Shown here one piece after another: positions 27,136-34,044 of a stretch of DNA of 37,571 nt (position 1 is its first letter; each line of letters opens with the position of its first letter). Where the stretch lies: positions 1-37,571 of IMG/VR virus record IMGVR_UViG_3300034683_000308, one strand, 5' to 3'. The notes beneath the pieces were generated by a model that had not been told where the DNA came from, made no database searches, and saw only the letters and a list, made by a program, of their open reading frames with translations. This stretch comes from a virus. The position numbers and the translations under genes were made by a program.

Positions 27136-27163
27136 AATATATCAAAAATTTTAAATTTGTAAA
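27136..27163 (-). promoter_or_regulatory. Early promoter of the replication arm
   Basis: Minus strand: TTTACA (complement 27158-27163), 16 bp spacer, TATATT (complement 27136-27141), within the shared extended motif TTTACAAATTTAAAA. It precedes the 27112 gene by about 25 bases, and no strong terminator is seen in the minus direction before 21.26 kb. It could therefore supply the small genes and the primase-helicase. Confidence 0.65.
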
Positions 27164-27240
27164 TATTAAATTTTGATTGTATTTTAAAAATCTAATATTA
27201 TCAATAATTTATAAAATAAAATTCAATTGCCGGCTTTATT

Positions 27241-27423: not shown

Positions 27424-27879
27424 CTATTTTATAGAAGGCTCATCAAACCCGTGTCCATCAGCACGAGGGATAATTTTTTTAGTTGCTGCTTCAATTTTCT
27501 GAAGTTCTGCTGCAAGTTGCTCAGTTTTAAGTGTGCCTGCAGCGACCTTAGCAAGAAGCTCTTCTTTTTTCTTTTTAGCTTCATTGTGCTGCTTAGTCCA
27601 CATTCTGACACCTTCTTTACACATTGTGTTAAGTCCAGTAGCAGTGCCTTTTTTCTCACCATACTCAGCAACTTTAGGGTCTTCCCATTTCTTATGGTAA
27701 TAGCAGAAAATATACTTAATATTACCTTTCTCATCTCTAATTACATTAGTTGCACTAGAACCAGTTCCTTTTCTTGGTGCCATAAGTTCCTCAAGCTGAG
27801 GCAATATTTCCTCAACTCTTCTGTTTTTGTTTTGAGTTAAAAACTTGTGAACTTCTGCGAATACTTTTTTAACTGTCAT
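27424..27879 (-). CDS. Paralogue 1 of a duplicated phage gene, function unknown
   Basis: 151 residues from the ATG at 27879 (AGGAGGATAAAA upstream); the frame is open 14 codons further. It is paralogous to the gene at 29224-29718: both share 'CYYHKKWE/CYYHKRWE', 'TATGLNTMCKEG', 'WTKxxxEAKKxKE' and 'ELLAKVAxGxxxTEQLxAELQKIE'. The core (55-105) is basic with aromatic residues, followed by a coiled coil (105-145). Basic core plus coiled coil suggests an oligomeric nucleic-acid-binding protein, but this is inference. It has its own promoter and terminator. Confidence 0.7.
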   Translation of the reverse strand: MTVKKVFAEVHKFLTQNKNRRVEEILPQLEELMAPRKGTGSSATNVIRDEKGNIKYIFCYYHKKWEDPKVAEYGEKKGTATGLNTMCKEGVRMWTKQHNEAKKKKEELLAKVAAGTLKTEQLAAELQKIEAATKKIIPRADGHGFDEPSIK

Positions 27880-27909
27880 TTTTATCCTCCTTCTGTTTTT
27901 GTTAATTAT

Positions 27910-27937
27910 AATATAACACAAATTTAAAATTTGTAAA
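27910..27937 (-). promoter_or_regulatory. Promoter of paralogue 1
   Basis: Minus strand: TTTACA (complement 27932-27937), 16 bp spacer, TATATT (complement 27910-27915), immediately followed by a TATAAT alternative (complement 27905-27910). The -35 shows the shared extension TTTACAAATTTTAAA. Confidence 0.65.
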
Positions 27938-28993: not shown

Positions 28994-29101
28994 GCAGCTA
29001 ATAGTAAAATATAGTTCTTTACACGCTGATTTCGGCGCAGCTAATAGTAAAATTTGGTTCTTTGCACGCTGATTTCGGCGCAGCTAATAGTAAAATTTAT
29101 A
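28994..29101. repeat. 43-bp direct repeat, 2.5 copies
   Basis: Units start at 28994, 29037 and 29080 (43 bp period) and begin GCAGCTAATAGTAAAAT. Copies 1 and 2 differ at a few bases, for example TATAGTTCTTTACACGCTG against TTGGTTCTTTGCACGCTG. The third copy stops after about 20 bases. The repeats are gene-free and lie between the terminator of paralogue 2 and the promoter at 28905. The rest of the gap (29102-29211) holds GAATGAGTGCTCGTTCATT (29178-29197) and no ORF. Confidence 0.85.
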
Positions 29102-29211: not shown

Positions 29212-29239
29212 AATAAAACCGGCTTAGGCCGGTTTTATT
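29212..29239 (-). terminator. Terminator of paralogue 2
   Basis: Twelve base-pair stem AATAAAACCGGC/GCCGGTTTTATT with TTAG loop. The stop codon of the 29224 gene lies in the loop region, and on the minus strand a T-rich tail follows. It could act in both directions. Confidence 0.85.
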
Positions 29240-29718
29240 ACTTTGTTGGTTAGTTTTGTATACGCTGCCAGTGCTTCCTCCTTTGTCTCAAAGCTATACT
29301 TATCAAGCTCTTTTGGTAGCGGTATAATTTCAGCTCTTTTTTCTTCAATTTTCTGAAGTTCCGCTGTAAGTTGCTCAGTGTTAATTTGTCCAGTCGCGAC
29401 TTTGGCTAATAATATCTCTTTTGCTTTTTTAGCCTCACTTTGCTTCTTAGTCCATTGTCGGGTGCCTTCCTTGCACATCGTATTTAGGCCAGTCGCTGTG
29501 CTGGCCTTTCTTCCGTATTCAACATAATTGACCAATTCCCATCTTTTGTGATAGTAGCAGCGGACGGCAATGATTTTGCCATCCTCGTCAGCTAGCCAGG
29601 AGCGCTCCTGGTTCTTGGAGCTCATAAATTGGACCAACATTGGCAAAATATCTTTTACTGTTTTGTTTTGGTTTTTTACCAGAAATTCGTGGATTTCTGT
29701 GAATTGCTTTTTAATCAT
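29224..29718 (-). CDS. Paralogue 2 of the duplicated gene, function unknown
   Basis: 164 residues from the ATG at 29718 (GGAGGAAGATT upstream). It aligns with the 27424 gene over most of its length: 'KKQFTEIHEFLVKNQNKTVKDILPMLVQFM' against 'KKVFAEVHKFLTQNKNRRVEEILPQLEELM', then the shared 'CYYHKRWE', 'TATGLNTMCKEG' and 'AELQKIE' blocks. It has a unique ~30-residue C-terminal extension. The start lies within the end of the 68-residue gene upstream. Duplicated early genes near the repeat island could be DNA-binding regulators or origin factors; this is inference. Confidence 0.7.
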   Translation of the reverse strand: MIKKQFTEIHEFLVKNQNKTVKDILPMLVQFMSSKNQERSWLADEDGKIIAVRCYYHKRWELVNYVEYGRKASTATGLNTMCKEGTRQWTKKQSEAKKAKEILLAKVATGQINTEQLTAELQKIEEKRAEIIPLPKELDKYSFETKEEALAAYTKLTNKVIKPA

Positions 29719-29917
29719 AATCTTCCTCCTTTTTATTGTTGATATTATATAATACTTCATTTAACTCATTGATTACGCAAATGACAAAATTATCCTTTTG
29801 GTATCTCTTATTTCTTTTGAGATACCTATTTATATCTGCAGACGTAGGGAAATTACATCCAAGAGTCTGCAATTTTCTTAGTTTTTCTTGGATAATCAAA
29901 TATCTGTTTTTTAACAT
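29711..29917 (-). CDS. First early gene, small basic protein
   Basis: 68 residues from the ATG at 29917 (GGAGGCAACG upstream); the frame continues 13 codons further without a better site. Helical and basic: 'MLKNRYLIIQEKLRKLQTL', 'SADINRYLKRNKRYQKDN'. It ends in an acidic tail that overlaps the start of paralogue 2. It is the first gene leftward of the repeat island and follows a promoter-like region with an inverted repeat (29941-29958). No family is recognised. Confidence 0.6.
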   Translation of the reverse strand: MLKNRYLIIQEKLRKLQTLGCNFPTSADINRYLKRNKRYQKDNFVICVINELNEVLYNINNKKEEDYD

Positions 29918-29940
29918 CGTTGCCTCCTTTTTAATTTTTT

Positions 29941-29995
29941 GATTGGTCTCAGCCAATCTTTTAATTATAAGATATTATATTTTTATTAAAAAGTA
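29941..29995 (-). promoter_or_regulatory. Promoter and operator-like repeat ahead of the early arm
   Basis: Minus strand reads TTTACT, about 17 bp, TATCTT, overlapping a better -10, TATAAT, a few bases on. Downstream lies GATTGG-CTGAGA-CCAATC (complement 29941-29958), an inverted repeat that could be an operator or leader hairpin. The -35 is weaker than in the other early promoters. Confidence 0.5.
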
Positions 29996-30007
29996 AACAA
30001 AAAAATG

Positions 30008-30025
30008 CGAATGAACGTTCATTCG
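30008..30025. promoter_or_regulatory. 18-bp perfect palindrome, operator candidate
   Basis: CGAATGAACGTTCATTCG reads the same on both strands. Half-site relatives occur at 29178-29197 (GAATGAGTGCTCGTTCATT) and in the 43-bp repeats at 31260 and 31303 (GAATGAGTGCTCGG). A symmetric dimer-binding site is likely. It sits just upstream of the early promoter at 29941-29995. Confidence 0.6.
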
Positions 30026-30105
30026 TAACTAAAAATATTACTATCAATCGCTATTTGTTTATTAGTTGAATAACTAATTAAATTACTGGAAATTACGGAG
30101 TTTGT

Positions 30106-30653
30106 AAATTATTGATAAATTTAGAAAAGTATTTTTTAAAAAATTGTGTTATATTACTTAGATTATAAATTATTGATATTATTAAATAATTATAATTTAA
30201 TTTTTTAAACTTTGTTTGAGGTAGTCAAAATTTAAAAAATTAAACAAAATTTAAGTAAAATTACAAACTTAAAATTTTAAAATTAAAATTTTGAAATATA
30301 AATTTTAATCTCCTGATACAATTGTTAAAAAAATACAATAATATCAATAATTTAGGAGAAAATTACAAAAAATTACAAGCCGACGGCCGCAAACTACTGA
30401 TATTTTTAATCTTTTTTAAAATTTAAAAAAATCAATTATCGAAATTAACGAAATTAACGAAAATTAATTGTATAAATTATTGATAATTAAAAAACAATTA
30501 CAAAATGTAACGAATTAGCGTTTTTCCTATATTATTTATTTTTATATTTTAATACCTTTAATGGCCGGTTAATTATATTAATTAGTTAATTTTTTTATTA
30601 ATTTAAATAATTAATAATTATAAATATTAAATTATAAATATAAATTATTGATA
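30106..30653. repeat. AT-rich iteron region (AAATTATTGATA), possible origin
   Basis: A 12-base motif AAATTATTGATA occurs at 30106, 30167, 30474 and 30642 (plus) and at 30342-30353 (minus), with a variant AAACTACTGATA at 30391; a further inverted copy is at 27199-27210. The region is almost pure A/T and also holds tandem GAAATTAAC units (about 30441-30465). Iterons within a very AT-rich unwinding segment are the typical look of a replication origin. There is no classic DnaA box. This belongs to the gene-free stretch 29918-31782. Confidence 0.6.
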
Positions 30654-30721
30654 ATATTAGATTTTAATAAAATTTTTATATCAGCAAAATATAATTAACT
30701 TATCAGCTATCAGCAAACCTT

Positions 30722-30871
30722 AGTATTATTTAGCTTTTGTCAACTATTTAGTCAAATCAAAACACTTTCCTAAACCGCAACCCAATATATTAGTTATAGA
30801 GTATTATTTAGCTTTTGGCAACTATTTAGTTAAATCAAAACACTTTCTTAAACCGCAACCCAATATATTAG
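30722..30871. repeat. 72-bp direct repeat, two copies
   Basis: Copies at 30722-30793 and 30800-30871 begin AGTATTATTTAGCTTTTG and end ACCGCAACCCAATATATTAG, with only a few differences (period 78 bp). Read on the minus strand each contains TTG(A/C)CAAAAGCTAA, a relative of the TTGGCAAAAGGCTAA block in inverted elements A and B. No ORF or ribosome binding site accompanies them. Confidence 0.85.
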
Positions 30872-30899
30872 CTGGCGCAGTGCTGAGGCAGTGTTTTGC

Positions 30900-31249
30900 T
30901 TTTACTGAACTTCCAACGCAATACCAACAGAACACTAGTTATAGTTTTACTGAACCTCCAACACAATACCAACAGAACATTAGTTATAGTTTTACTGAAC
31001 CTCCAACACAATACCAACAGAACATTAGTTATAGTTTTACTGAACCTCCAACGCAATACCAACAGAACATTAGTTATAGTTTTACTGGGCAATCTGCTCA
31101 ATACCAACAGAACACTAGTTATAATTTTACTGAACTCCCAACGCAATACTAACAGAACACTAGTTATAGTTTTACTGAACGGCAATTCACAGGCACGGAG
31201 GTAGTGTTTTGTTCTTACTGAACTTCCAACGCAATACTAACAGAATATT
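30900..31249. repeat. 45-bp tandem array, about eight units
   Basis: Units start at 30900, 30945, 30990, 31035, 31080, 31125, 31170 and about 31213. The consensus begins TTTTACTGAACCTCCAACAC, continues AATACCAACAGAAC and ends ATTAGTTATAG. Units 2-4 are almost identical; units 5 and 7 are diverged. Because 45 is a multiple of three, repetitive ORFs appear in several frames, but none has a ribosome binding site. A longer motif with GGCAGTGTTTTG precedes unit 1 and recurs before unit 8. There are no unique spacers, so this is not CRISPR. Confidence 0.9.
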
Positions 31250-31346
31250 AGTTTATAACGAATGAGTGCTCGGCTTTCTTAAAACATTATTTAGTTTATA
31301 ACGAATGAGTGCTCGGCTTTCTTAAAACATTATTTAGTTTATAACG
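31250..31346. repeat. 43-bp direct repeat, two copies plus a partial third
   Basis: Units start at 31250, 31293 and 31336: AGTTTATAACGAATGAGTGC followed by TCGGCTTTCTTAAAACATTA. The third stops after AGTTTATAACGAA. The array abuts the 45-bp array. Each unit holds the GAATGAGTGCTCG half-site also seen at 29178. From 31347 to 31527 no gene or clear motif is visible. Confidence 0.85.
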
Positions 31347-31527
31347 AACTGCAACTCATTTATAACAAGATGCTGTCATAATAGTGATGAGCGTGGTTCA
31401 TTTAAAATAATATATAGTTTTGTTTGTAGTGAGTGGCAGGCTTAGCAGAAGTGAGATAATGTTTTACTAAGGCTATGTTAGAAATTCAGTACTTATGAGA
31501 TAGTAGTATAAAATTTTGCTAAATAGC

Positions 31528-31565
31528 GCCGGCATTCTGGGGGTATATGCCGGCCTAGCCTTTTA
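31528..31565 (+). terminator. GC-rich orphan hairpin in the repeat island
   Basis: Eight base-pair stem GCCGGCAT/ATGCCGGC (31528-31535, 31547-31554) with an 11-base G-rich loop, followed on the plus strand by CTAGCCTTTTAT. No gene ends here on the plus strand, so it may end a non-coding transcript from the repeats, or be a structured site. Confidence 0.5.
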
Positions 31566-31610
31566 TATTTACATATGACACTGGCATGGTTTGTGCGCCG
31601 GGTTTTGGTA

Positions 31611-31747
31611 GTGCAATAAATTTAATAATAATTACCAGAAAATACCCAGTAGAAAAAATTTCATACCGGGTTTGAATAGTGTAATAAATTTAATAATAAT
31701 TACCAGAAAAATACCCAGTAGAAAAAATTTCCTACCGGGTTTTGTAA
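31611..31747 (-). terminator. Tandemly duplicated terminator after the large terminase gene
   Basis: A ~68 bp unit occurs twice (31611-31678, 31679-31747). Each unit contains ACCCAGTA (31644, 31713) and TACCGGGT (31664, 31733), which on the minus-strand RNA pair over 8 bp with one G-U around an A/U-rich loop and are followed by TATTTT(T)CTGG. This is an intrinsic terminator in double dose, insulating the island from terminase transcription. A decayed third half lies at about 31601. Confidence 0.75.
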
Positions 31748-31782
31748 ATATTGTATTAAATTTATTACTGGACTATAACAAC

Positions 31783-33351
31783 CTATAACGCCAAACCGTC
31801 GAATACTTGCTTATATCCTAGTTTGTCTTCTGCCTTTTCTTGGCTCTTATTTATTCCAGATACCATATAACGTATAGCATCAGCCCCATGAGAATAGTAG
31901 TTATGTAAGGGTTTTTGTTTCCAAGTTCCTAATTTTTCATCCCAAGCTTTAGAATAATTAAGAAAGCACGCTCTAAGATACTCACATTTCTTATCAATCC
32001 ACAATTTAGGTAATATAGCTCTTACTGCTTCTATACCATCAGCTAAGTTAGACCTAGGTAGAACAGTTATATTCTTAACTCCAAGTCCTCTTATTAAATC
32101 TAAACGACTTCGGCCACTACTTAACTCCCTAACTTTAACATCGTGTGGTAATATTATATTAGTTATGTTCTCATACATTTCATACATAGTTTTGACATAA
32201 TGCTCGAGGCTTTCGCCTTCTGCATAATATTCGTCAATAATTCTGTACTCATTTTTATAGTATTGAAAAAAGCACATAACCATAATGTCATCTATACCTA
32301 AATCATAGCTGACTTGTACTCCTAGGTTAGGGTCGAACAGTCCGTCAATCTCTCTGTCTTTCTTAATAACATGCTGTCTATACAGGCGAGCCCAGTAAGT
32401 CCCATCCTTGGATACTGTAAAGGCTTCCTCATCTGTGGTAGGGTACTCAGAATAAATATCATCACCAAGCTCTCGGTATTTCTGAACCCAGAAGTTCTTT
32501 TGTTCTTGAGTTAGTTTAATGTTATGCTCTAGAGCTAGTTTCTCGAAATATTCTGCATGTTTAGGTGATATGTACTCCTCAGCAGATGATATACAATCAC
32601 GGTCAAGAGTCCAACCAAGGAATATCGGCTTGAAGTCCATAAGTGAGTATTGTTTTAGGTCACGAGCTTGGAACCACATTTCTTTAAAAGCATTATCTCC
32701 CTCAGCTGTTGACTCGATAACTACGGGGTTGCCTGGAGCAATGGCCTGAAGAGTACCTTTCTTAGTTTCTGTAATTCGCTCAGGATATTTAGAAGCGATT
32801 TTGCCGAGCTCTGAAATGTGTAAGCGGTGTAGAGTAGCTGACCTGAATGATACCCTGATAAATATATTAGAGTTGTTATTGAAAGCAAAAGCTTTAGTAT
32901 TGTTTTTGTCAGTATCAAGCTTGAGAAAATCTTTAATCACAGGATTTAACTCATCCCAAGCAATTTTAACTCTTTCGAGAAGTTTGCTGGCTTCGTCAGT
33001 ACCTTGGGCCATAAGGCCTATATTTAGGTTAGGTATAAAAAGAGCATCATCGAAAAAGTTAATAAGCATTAATGTTGATATACCATGCTGTCTTGATTTG
33101 AGAATAATAAGTCTTGGATGTTTTAAAAGCTCTGCATAAACTAAATGCTGAACTGGATTCATTTTGAATTTAATAAGTCTACCATATTTATCAATAATAG
33201 TGTATAGGTTATTTAGTCTCCATAATTTTGAAGCTAGATAATTTTCGATAAAATCGGAGTCTGATTTGAAAGGTCTTTCGAAAATATCTGGATTGTGAAA
33301 ATTTGGGTGTAATTCACAAAATTGGTCTTTAGATATAGACAGTTGCCACAT
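31783..33351 (-). CDS. terL: Terminase large subunit
   Basis: 522 residues. Walker A-like 'LKSRQHGIST' (84-93), a degenerate Walker B 'LHISELGKI' (Glu181), coupling motif 'VIESTAEGDN' (211-220), and 'EYPTTDEEAF' (302-311), typical of terminases. The nuclease domain has Asp350 ('VSYDLGIDD'), Asp404 ('LPHDVKVRE') and Asp491 ('HGADAIRYM'). It translocates and cuts DNA at the portal. It is encoded opposite to the capsid genes and directly after a 33-residue microprotein. The weak Walker B (E instead of D-E) is usual in this subgroup. Confidence 0.95.
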   Translation of the reverse strand: MWQLSISKDQFCELHPNFHNPDIFERPFKSDSDFIENYLASKLWRLNNLYTIIDKYGRLIKFKMNPVQHLVYAELLKHPRLIILKSRQHGISTLMLINFFDDALFIPNLNIGLMAQGTDEASKLLERVKIAWDELNPVIKDFLKLDTDKNNTKAFAFNNNSNIFIRVSFRSATLHRLHISELGKIASKYPERITETKKGTLQAIAPGNPVVIESTAEGDNAFKEMWFQARDLKQYSLMDFKPIFLGWTLDRDCISSAEEYISPKHAEYFEKLALEHNIKLTQEQKNFWVQKYRELGDDIYSEYPTTDEEAFTVSKDGTYWARLYRQHVIKKDREIDGLFDPNLGVQVSYDLGIDDIMVMCFFQYYKNEYRIIDEYYAEGESLEHYVKTMYEMYENITNIILPHDVKVRELSSGRSRLDLIRGLGVKNITVLPRSNLADGIEAVRAILPKLWIDKKCEYLRACFLNYSKAWDEKLGTWKQKPLHNYYSHGADAIRYMVSGINKSQEKAEDKLGYKQVFDGLAL

Positions 33352-33455: not shown

Positions 33456-33860
33456 TTAGTCCTTAAGAAGAGCTCTGAATTTGACAACTTCTTTATCACT
33501 TAATACAGTATTCACTTGGTTTAACACAAGTGGGTTTTGTTTATTAAAAAAAGCATTTTGGATTGATGTGATACAGTCCGCCAAAGCTTTGATTTCTTTG
33601 GGGTCCATATCAAACTCAATCATACGGTTTATTTTGTCAATAATAGCATTAGCTGTTGTTTCCATTTTATCTGATAGTTTATTTTCTACTGTTAATTCTT
33701 GGACTTCAGTCTCAATTTCCTCAACTTTAACAGGTTGAGATAACTTAGACTCAATTTCTTTAACCGCAGAGTATGGCACACGGTATTCTTGAACAATATT
33801 TTGTATAGTTTTGCCATTTTTTAAATCTTCGAGTATTTTATTTGCTGTTTTCAAGTTCAT
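33456..33860 (-). CDS. Putative terminase small subunit
   Basis: 134 residues behind AGAGGTGGAATA. The N-terminal 'ANKILEDLKNGKTIQNIVQEYRVPYSAVKEIESKL' is a clear helix-turn-helix of the type used to bind packaging DNA. A charged linker (45-60) and a helical oligomerisation region ('METTANAIIDKINRMIEFDMDPKEIKALADCITSIQNAF') follow. This plan, and its position upstream of the large terminase, make it the small subunit. It overlaps the RHH gene by 23 bases. Confidence 0.75.
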   Translation of the reverse strand: MNLKTANKILEDLKNGKTIQNIVQEYRVPYSAVKEIESKLSQPVKVEEIETEVQELTVENKLSDKMETTANAIIDKINRMIEFDMDPKEIKALADCITSIQNAFFNKQNPLVLNQVNTVLSDKEVVKFRALLKD

Positions 33861-34044
33861 TATTCCACCTCTTTTCTAAATATTCGTGCAAAGCTTTTAC
33901 TATAATTTGGCTTCGATTAGCACTATAGACTTCACAGTACTTGTCTAGCTTAAATATTACAGCTTTGCCAAAGTAATCTGAATTTTTTACTGAAAAAGAC
34001 CTAATTATTCTCTGCTCTTGATAGATTTTGTTCTCGTTGCTCAT
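33838..34044 (-). CDS. Ribbon-helix-helix DNA-binding protein
   Basis: 68 residues behind AAGGAGG. 'RIIRSFSVKNSDYFGKAVIFKLDKYCEVYSANRSQIIVKALHEYLEKRW' fits an Arc/CopG-type fold: a short beta ribbon, helix A, a turn 'ANRSQ' and helix B. Such proteins bind operators as dimers. It is the first gene leftward of the divergent promoter region, so it could autoregulate and control the capsid operon, or help the small terminase at the packaging site. Confidence 0.65.
   Translation of the reverse strand: MSNENKIYQEQRIIRSFSVKNSDYFGKAVIFKLDKYCEVYSANRSQIIVKALHEYLEKRWNNELENSK

Follow-up and report, generated by a model that had tools for sequence, protein, structure and literature searches.

What is the function of a long gene-free stretch that separates the terminase genes of a phage from its early genes? 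The window (the whole 37,571-nucleotide stretch analysed here) represents a complete genome of about 37.5 kb, whose ends overlap by 64 bp. In it, 1,865 bp form such an island, bounded by the stop codon of the terminase large subunit (TerL) gene at 31783 and the ATG of a 68-amino-acid gene at 29917, both on the minus strand. The original prediction described this island as several unrelated repeat families with an orphan GC hairpin, gave replication origin, packaging (pac) signal, repeat RNA and protein titration as candidate roles, and regarded it as a candidate undescribed system. We consider, with a probability of roughly 0.6, that it is the main cis-acting control region of the phage, in which a terminase recognition and chromosome-end site (two elements, termed BoxA and BoxG) is followed by origin-type repeats and an early promoter, probably inside a terminal repeat. 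The island and its neighbours are:

33456-33860, minus strand: terminase small subunit TerS (phrog_18995, 5.8e-08)
31783-33351, minus strand: TerL (PHROG matches; 47-60% to relatives)
29918-31782, minus strand as read: the island, a non-coding control region from TerL to the first early gene (ORF list, repeats, syntenic gap of 344-3322 bp in relatives)
29711-29917, minus strand: first early gene, 68 amino acids (ORF list)
29224-29718, minus strand: phrog_10459-family early protein, a family-wide marker of the early side (PHROG and relative matches)

The absence of genes was borne out, as the ORF list and a family scan give no supportable gene at 29918-31782. The only ORFs of at least 60 amino acids are three overlapping frames of 90-105 amino acids over a 45-bp array; they have TTG or GTG starts and no visible ribosome-binding site, a family search of one of them gave no match above cut-off, and they were rejected as genes. 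A family search with the first early gene gave none either. No match to the island was found in Rfam or in a nucleotide search of phages, a literature search on the region found nothing, and the report on phage KF-1 does not mention it (PMC3569283). Every element listed in the original prediction is present, and the island is a previously undescribed cis-acting region; calling it an undescribed system is too strong, as it belongs to an ordinary phage lineage and is not a new kind of system.

Judged from its proteins, the window phage is a Kafunavirus-like (KF-1/PH1/VPMS1) podovirus and a distant member of that group, with TerL at 47-50% to the named phages. Its relatives include Edwardsiella phages KF-1, IW-1, ETP-1 and ZHX, Pseudoalteromonas phage PH1, Vibrio phage VPMS1 and Dickeya phage Amaethon, to which TerL, the phrog_10459 protein and the primase have 37-50% identity (the primase match to TIGR01613 is below cut-off, that to DUF5906 above). 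In the relatives, TerS and TerL are followed by a gap, by small early genes (phrog_10459 among them) and then by primase and polymerase, and the structural genes occupy the opposite strand. The window has the same layout: TerS-TerL, then early genes with a P4-type primase, DNA polymerase and ligase, and divergent structural genes. An island-type gap occurs at the same place in about 50 related phages, and our comparison set comprises 48 distinct loci spanning TerL to phrog_10459 with gaps of 344-3322 bp. From TerL to the early genes these gaps have a common layout of BoxA, BoxG, lineage-specific tandem arrays, and an early promoter with a leader. The parts of the island fit this layout, so they should be described as modules of one conserved control region rather than as unrelated families. 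The window resembles the Kafunavirus genomes KF-1, IW-1, ETP-1 and ZHX and the related PH1, VPMS1 and Amaethon in gene order, BoxA, BoxG and gap position, whereas it is more AT-rich, its BoxG has diverged and its array sequences are its own. Its tandem-repeat share is the largest among the loci compared, equal to that of PH1.

Next to TerL, the island contains the following elements:

31743-31769, minus strand: BoxA copy 1, AT palindrome with asymmetric flank (PWM 21.7 bits)
31713-31740, minus strand: intrinsic terminator copy 1 of the TerS-TerL transcript (-17 kcal/mol, z -5.3)
31671-31697, minus strand: BoxA copy 2 (PWM 21.3 bits)
31644-31671, minus strand: intrinsic terminator copy 2 (-12.9 kcal/mol, z -5.0)
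31603-31629, minus strand: BoxA copy 3, the last copy, at fixed spacing to BoxG (PWM 22.5 bits)
31598-31764: 68-bp repeat, 2.4 copies, with the two terminators
31524-31558, minus strand: BoxG equivalent, the former orphan GC hairpin (arms 31528-31554), starting 71 bp after the start of the last BoxA and predicted at the left chromosome end

The AT palindrome BoxA reads TTAATAAATTTATTAA and is flanked asymmetrically by TACT; each relative has 1-3 scored copies. It was first spotted by eye in the repeat consensus and neighbouring sequence, and a matrix was then built from 11 phages. When this matrix was applied to 61 unseen relatives, the best match of the locus fell within 620 bp after TerL in 43, against 8% expected; among distant TerL controls the count was 5/45. 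The window has three copies above 21 bits after TerL. The duplicated terminator of the original prediction consists of three BoxA copies with terminator hairpins, repeated in a 68-bp unit.

BoxG is a GC-rich element with the consensus CCgGACTGgCCCTAGGgcCC. In a five-fold hold-out, 40 of 60 loci had their best BoxG match no more than 800 bp after TerL, where 5.7 would be expected; 37 of the 40 were on the same strand. The distance from the last BoxA to BoxG is 62-75 bp in 43/44 loci (median 71, interquartile range 69-72), while first BoxA copies in multi-copy loci lie 74-245 bp from BoxG. Re-pairing BoxG with the BoxA of other loci gives a mean of 3.4 of 47 (maximum 9), compared to 44 observed, and alignment of 55 loci on the last BoxA reveals a GC peak of 0.63-0.77 at +65 to +90. 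BoxG has no overall dyad symmetry across the family. BoxA and BoxG are a conserved two-part element with a near-fixed spacing. The GC hairpin of the window begins at +71, exactly at the BoxG position, and is not an orphan. Its sequence has diverged (BoxG PWM only 2.2 bits), so its assignment rests on position and GC content, and its fold z-score is only -1.5.

Genome ends, taken from two independent deposited records, connect this site to packaging. The ETP-1 record opens inside BoxG, at the junction GGTCCGGT/GCCTAGGG. In ZHX, whose record was deposited as a linear sequence, an exact direct repeat of 1,288 bp forms the two ends, beginning 20 bp ahead of BoxG. The chance of two of six arbitrary boundaries falling within 30 bp of BoxG is about 3e-5. 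ETP-1 and ZHX are close relatives (Kafunavirus KF1), so they represent one lineage, with a 28-bp difference between their left ends. Because the ZHX repeat has its right end at a tandem array in the gap after phrog_10459, it could be an overlap produced in assembly. The remaining records, circularised or opened arbitrarily (KF-1 and IW-1 at the TerS start), are uninformative, and the end overlaps of VPMS1 (20 bp) and PH1 (127 bp) look like assembly overlaps and were rejected as real termini. The BoxG site is internal to most near-complete contigs, including the window; 6 of 15 measurable contig ends lie within -30 to +60 bp of BoxG, which we do not count as evidence because arrays break assemblies there. 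The packaging role put forward in the original prediction is supported by this comparison. We infer that BoxA and BoxG form the terminase site because they lie beside the terminase genes, have a geometry like that of lambda cosB-cosN (PMC4856287) and coincide with the genome ends of two relatives. The left chromosome end of the window is predicted near 31,520-31,580. The gap in which the ZHX repeat ends is equivalent to that containing another array of the window:

28994-29099, no strand assigned: second 43-bp array, 2.5 copies, in the next intergenic gap outside the island (repeat search)

The terminal repeat of the window could reach this gap, which predicts a length of about 2.5 kb. Arrays at the equivalent place also occur in KF-1 and in loci L030 and L036.

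Beyond BoxG, the island contains repeats, an AT-rich tract and putative transcription signals:

31248-31348, minus strand: 43-bp tandem repeat, 2.3 copies (repeat search)
30900-31180, minus strand: 45-bp tandem array, 6.2 copies by TRF, with degraded flanking copies out to 31253 and 30885 (repeat search)
30722-30871, minus strand: 78-bp tandem repeat, 1.9 copies (72 bp aligned; 72/78-bp) (repeat search)
29990-30720, no strand assigned: AT-rich tract with five identical 13-mers that fit the IHF consensus, TATCAATAATTTA, at 30105, 30166, 30342 (inverted), 30473 and 30641
30008-30025, minus strand: 18-bp palindrome that, in minus-strand orientation, resembles a terminator hairpin with a T run
29969-29997, minus strand: candidate early promoter TTTACT-17-TATCTT, with TATAAT also 12 bp after TTTACT (from sequence)
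29941-29958, minus strand: leader hairpin of the first early gene (fold; stem kept by a paired substitution in L001)

The eight copies first assigned to the 45-bp array include partial copies; the array itself stands. Relatives with the same gene order and no repeats had been named as evidence against the prediction. Arrays occur in 37 of the 48 loci, where they occupy 12.0% of gaps against 0.67% elsewhere, with units of 9 to 162 bp that differ between phages; TRF detects none in 11 loci. Because KF-1 and ten other loci have no detectable array, arrays are not indispensable. The 45-bp core TATAACTAA[AT] is enriched in the gaps of relatives, and TATA[AG]CTAA[AT], the core of the 45- and 78-bp units, has 33 occurrences in gaps against 2.8 expected, 29 of these outside the window, with 8 occurrences on the opposite strand. 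In the AT tract, the 13-mer TAAATTATTGATA has five copies (any 12-mer reaches five in 6 of 1000 tract shuffles) and the IHF consensus occurs five times against 0.2 expected (0/1000 shuffles); IHF-consensus sites occur in only 10 of 60 gaps of relatives. A sixth copy of the island 12-mer lies at 27199, within another intergenic gap (27140-27213) that has AT-rich similarity to the island. Gene orientation diverges near the island and converges close to the antipode (13.56 kb vs 12.1 kb in the window, 22.2 vs 22.5 kb in VPMS1), and the minima of GC skew fall close to the divergent promoter, not within the island. A replication origin role is plausible, given the AT tract, repeated IHF-consensus sites, fast-evolving arrays and P4-type primase, and is a weaker inference than packaging.

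Exact TTTACT-N16/18-TATAAT promoters are present in relatives and absent from the window. Strong TTTACT-N17-TATAAT early promoters occur in tandem in L136:139-701 (7x), L151:3296-3506 (3x) and L020:39960-40283, with units of 89, 91 and 94 bp, and also in ct1fd. Per-unit promoter consensus is not above chance in the window, and sigma-70 promoters in its arrays were rejected because counts equal those of shuffles. The contig L001 is 99.8% identical to the window up to the leader hairpin and then leads into a different first early gene (L001:7580-7862 against window 29711-29958), which is a cassette swap right at the leader; a paired T-A to C-G substitution keeps the hairpin stem and the loop CTGAGA is unchanged.

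In our preferred reading, the modules from TerL to the early genes would be a terminase site, origin-type repeats, and a promoter with a leader. A protein, most simply TerS, would bind the BoxA palindromes, and TerL would cut the DNA 71 bp away, at the GC-rich BoxG or next to it, and so fix the left chromosome end. DNA past the cut (arrays, AT tract, early promoter and first early genes) would become the direct terminal repeat. The origin, used with the P4-type primase/helicase, would most likely consist of the lineage-specific arrays together with the AT tract and its IHF-type sites, and the promoter and leader hairpin would start the early genes. Such a rigid two-part ruler amid fast-evolving repeats gives a little-studied but widespread podovirus lineage a defined packaging and chromosome-end signal, and with BoxA/BoxG the ends of dozens of phage genomes from metagenomes can be located.

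Known systems share parts of this arrangement. T7-type phages have a chromosome end between late and early genes, a defined cut in the concatemer and a direct terminal repeat, as proposed for the window; in contrast to T7, no phage RNA polymerase gene was found among the proteins scanned, the early promoter is host-type, and a two-part palindrome/GC site takes the place of the T7 end signals. Lambda cos (cosB R sites plus cosN, with the bend protein IHF involved) also has multiple binding-site copies on one side, a fixed critical distance and a short cut site near the terminase genes (PMC4856287). Fixed spacing of repeated sites is seen for BoxA-BoxG, with TerS as the putative binder, but BoxA is an AT palindrome of 16-18 bp, about 71 bp separate it from BoxG, and BoxG lacks an overall dyad. 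Lambda-like cohesive ends are not supported, as the ends of ZHX (a relative, not the window itself) are a long direct repeat. P4-type or PLE-type iteron origins (PLE: PMC7145576) also have repeats in non-coding AT-rich DNA and a phage-coded initiator or primase; the window has iterons, an AT-rich tract and a primase gene, with initiator binding putative, whereas the arrays vary among close relatives and are missing from some phages.

Other explanations account for parts of these observations. Repeats commonly break or distort assemblies, and three ORFs are open through the 45-bp array, so the island could be an assembly artefact or decayed genes. This is extremely improbable: the independent contig L001 has the same repeats and copy numbers with one base change within the arrays, which argues against an assembly accident, and the same site and layout in some 50 relatives refute an artefact of layout. 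It is very unlikely that the island produces a structured or repeat RNA or titrates a DNA-binding protein. About 0.7-1.4 kb from the TerL terminators to the hairpin terminator at 30008-30025 could be transcribed and end there, but Rfam gave no match, the GC hairpin has a fold z-score of only -1.5, array sequence and unit length are wholly different between relatives, about a quarter of which have no arrays, and neither role gained positive evidence. It is rather unlikely that BoxA/BoxG and the arrays are all origin parts, recognised by the P4-family primase/helicase or another initiator, with the packaging site elsewhere. The AT tract, repeated IHF-consensus sites, iteron-like arrays, P4-type primase and gene orientation agree with this, but orientation is equally explained by transcription units, and two records of relatives that begin at BoxG, one with a terminal repeat from there, are left unexplained.

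A role in transcription control only, with BoxA as a phage repressor operator and the arrays as tandem early promoters or early-regulator sites, is unlikely. BoxA-like palindromes also occur upstream of TerS (14 loci) and the capsid gene (11 loci), several directly after a promoter -10 element, which suggests an operator role there; the tandem promoters of L136, L151 and ct1fd and the enriched TATA[AG]CTAA[AT] core point the same way. However, the window island has no more promoter-like sites than shuffled sequence (15 vs 15.7), the late-promoter palindromes have no GC partner, and transcription control explains neither the partner at a fixed 71 bp nor the genome ends at this site. The presence of such palindromes at late promoters counts against our preferred reading, in that the BoxA binder may be a regulator rather than TerS. 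As a tentative suggestion in which we place low confidence, one phage protein could read BoxA twice, as an operator at the terminase and capsid operon promoters and as a multi-copy packaging recognition site, so that late transcription, DNA cutting and a terminally repeated origin/early promoter would be coupled via BoxA and the fixed 71-bp ruler to BoxG. If true, this would be a new design of terminase site.

Several genes merit mention. The 68-amino-acid gene at 33838-34044, which heads the TerS operon, has weak repressor/aCcr1-type matches and is a candidate binder of BoxA palindromes. The window encodes two paralogous phrog_10459 proteins (27424-27921 and 29224-29718), and the named relatives checked each encode two or three, of which the first always immediately follows the island. 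A predicted phrog_10459 model (pLDDT 92.8; conserved C54, H57 and C82) has weak zinc-ribbon-like matches (PhnA, archaeal TFS4) that are leads only, and no significant match to the PDB; the model is confident, but this protein was set aside as a BoxA/BoxG binder for want of a convincing fold match. A 211-amino-acid ORF at 17162-17797 matches a dCMP deaminase family over its first half and a pyrophosphohydrolase (dATP/dGTP) family over its second half, and is a possible fusion.
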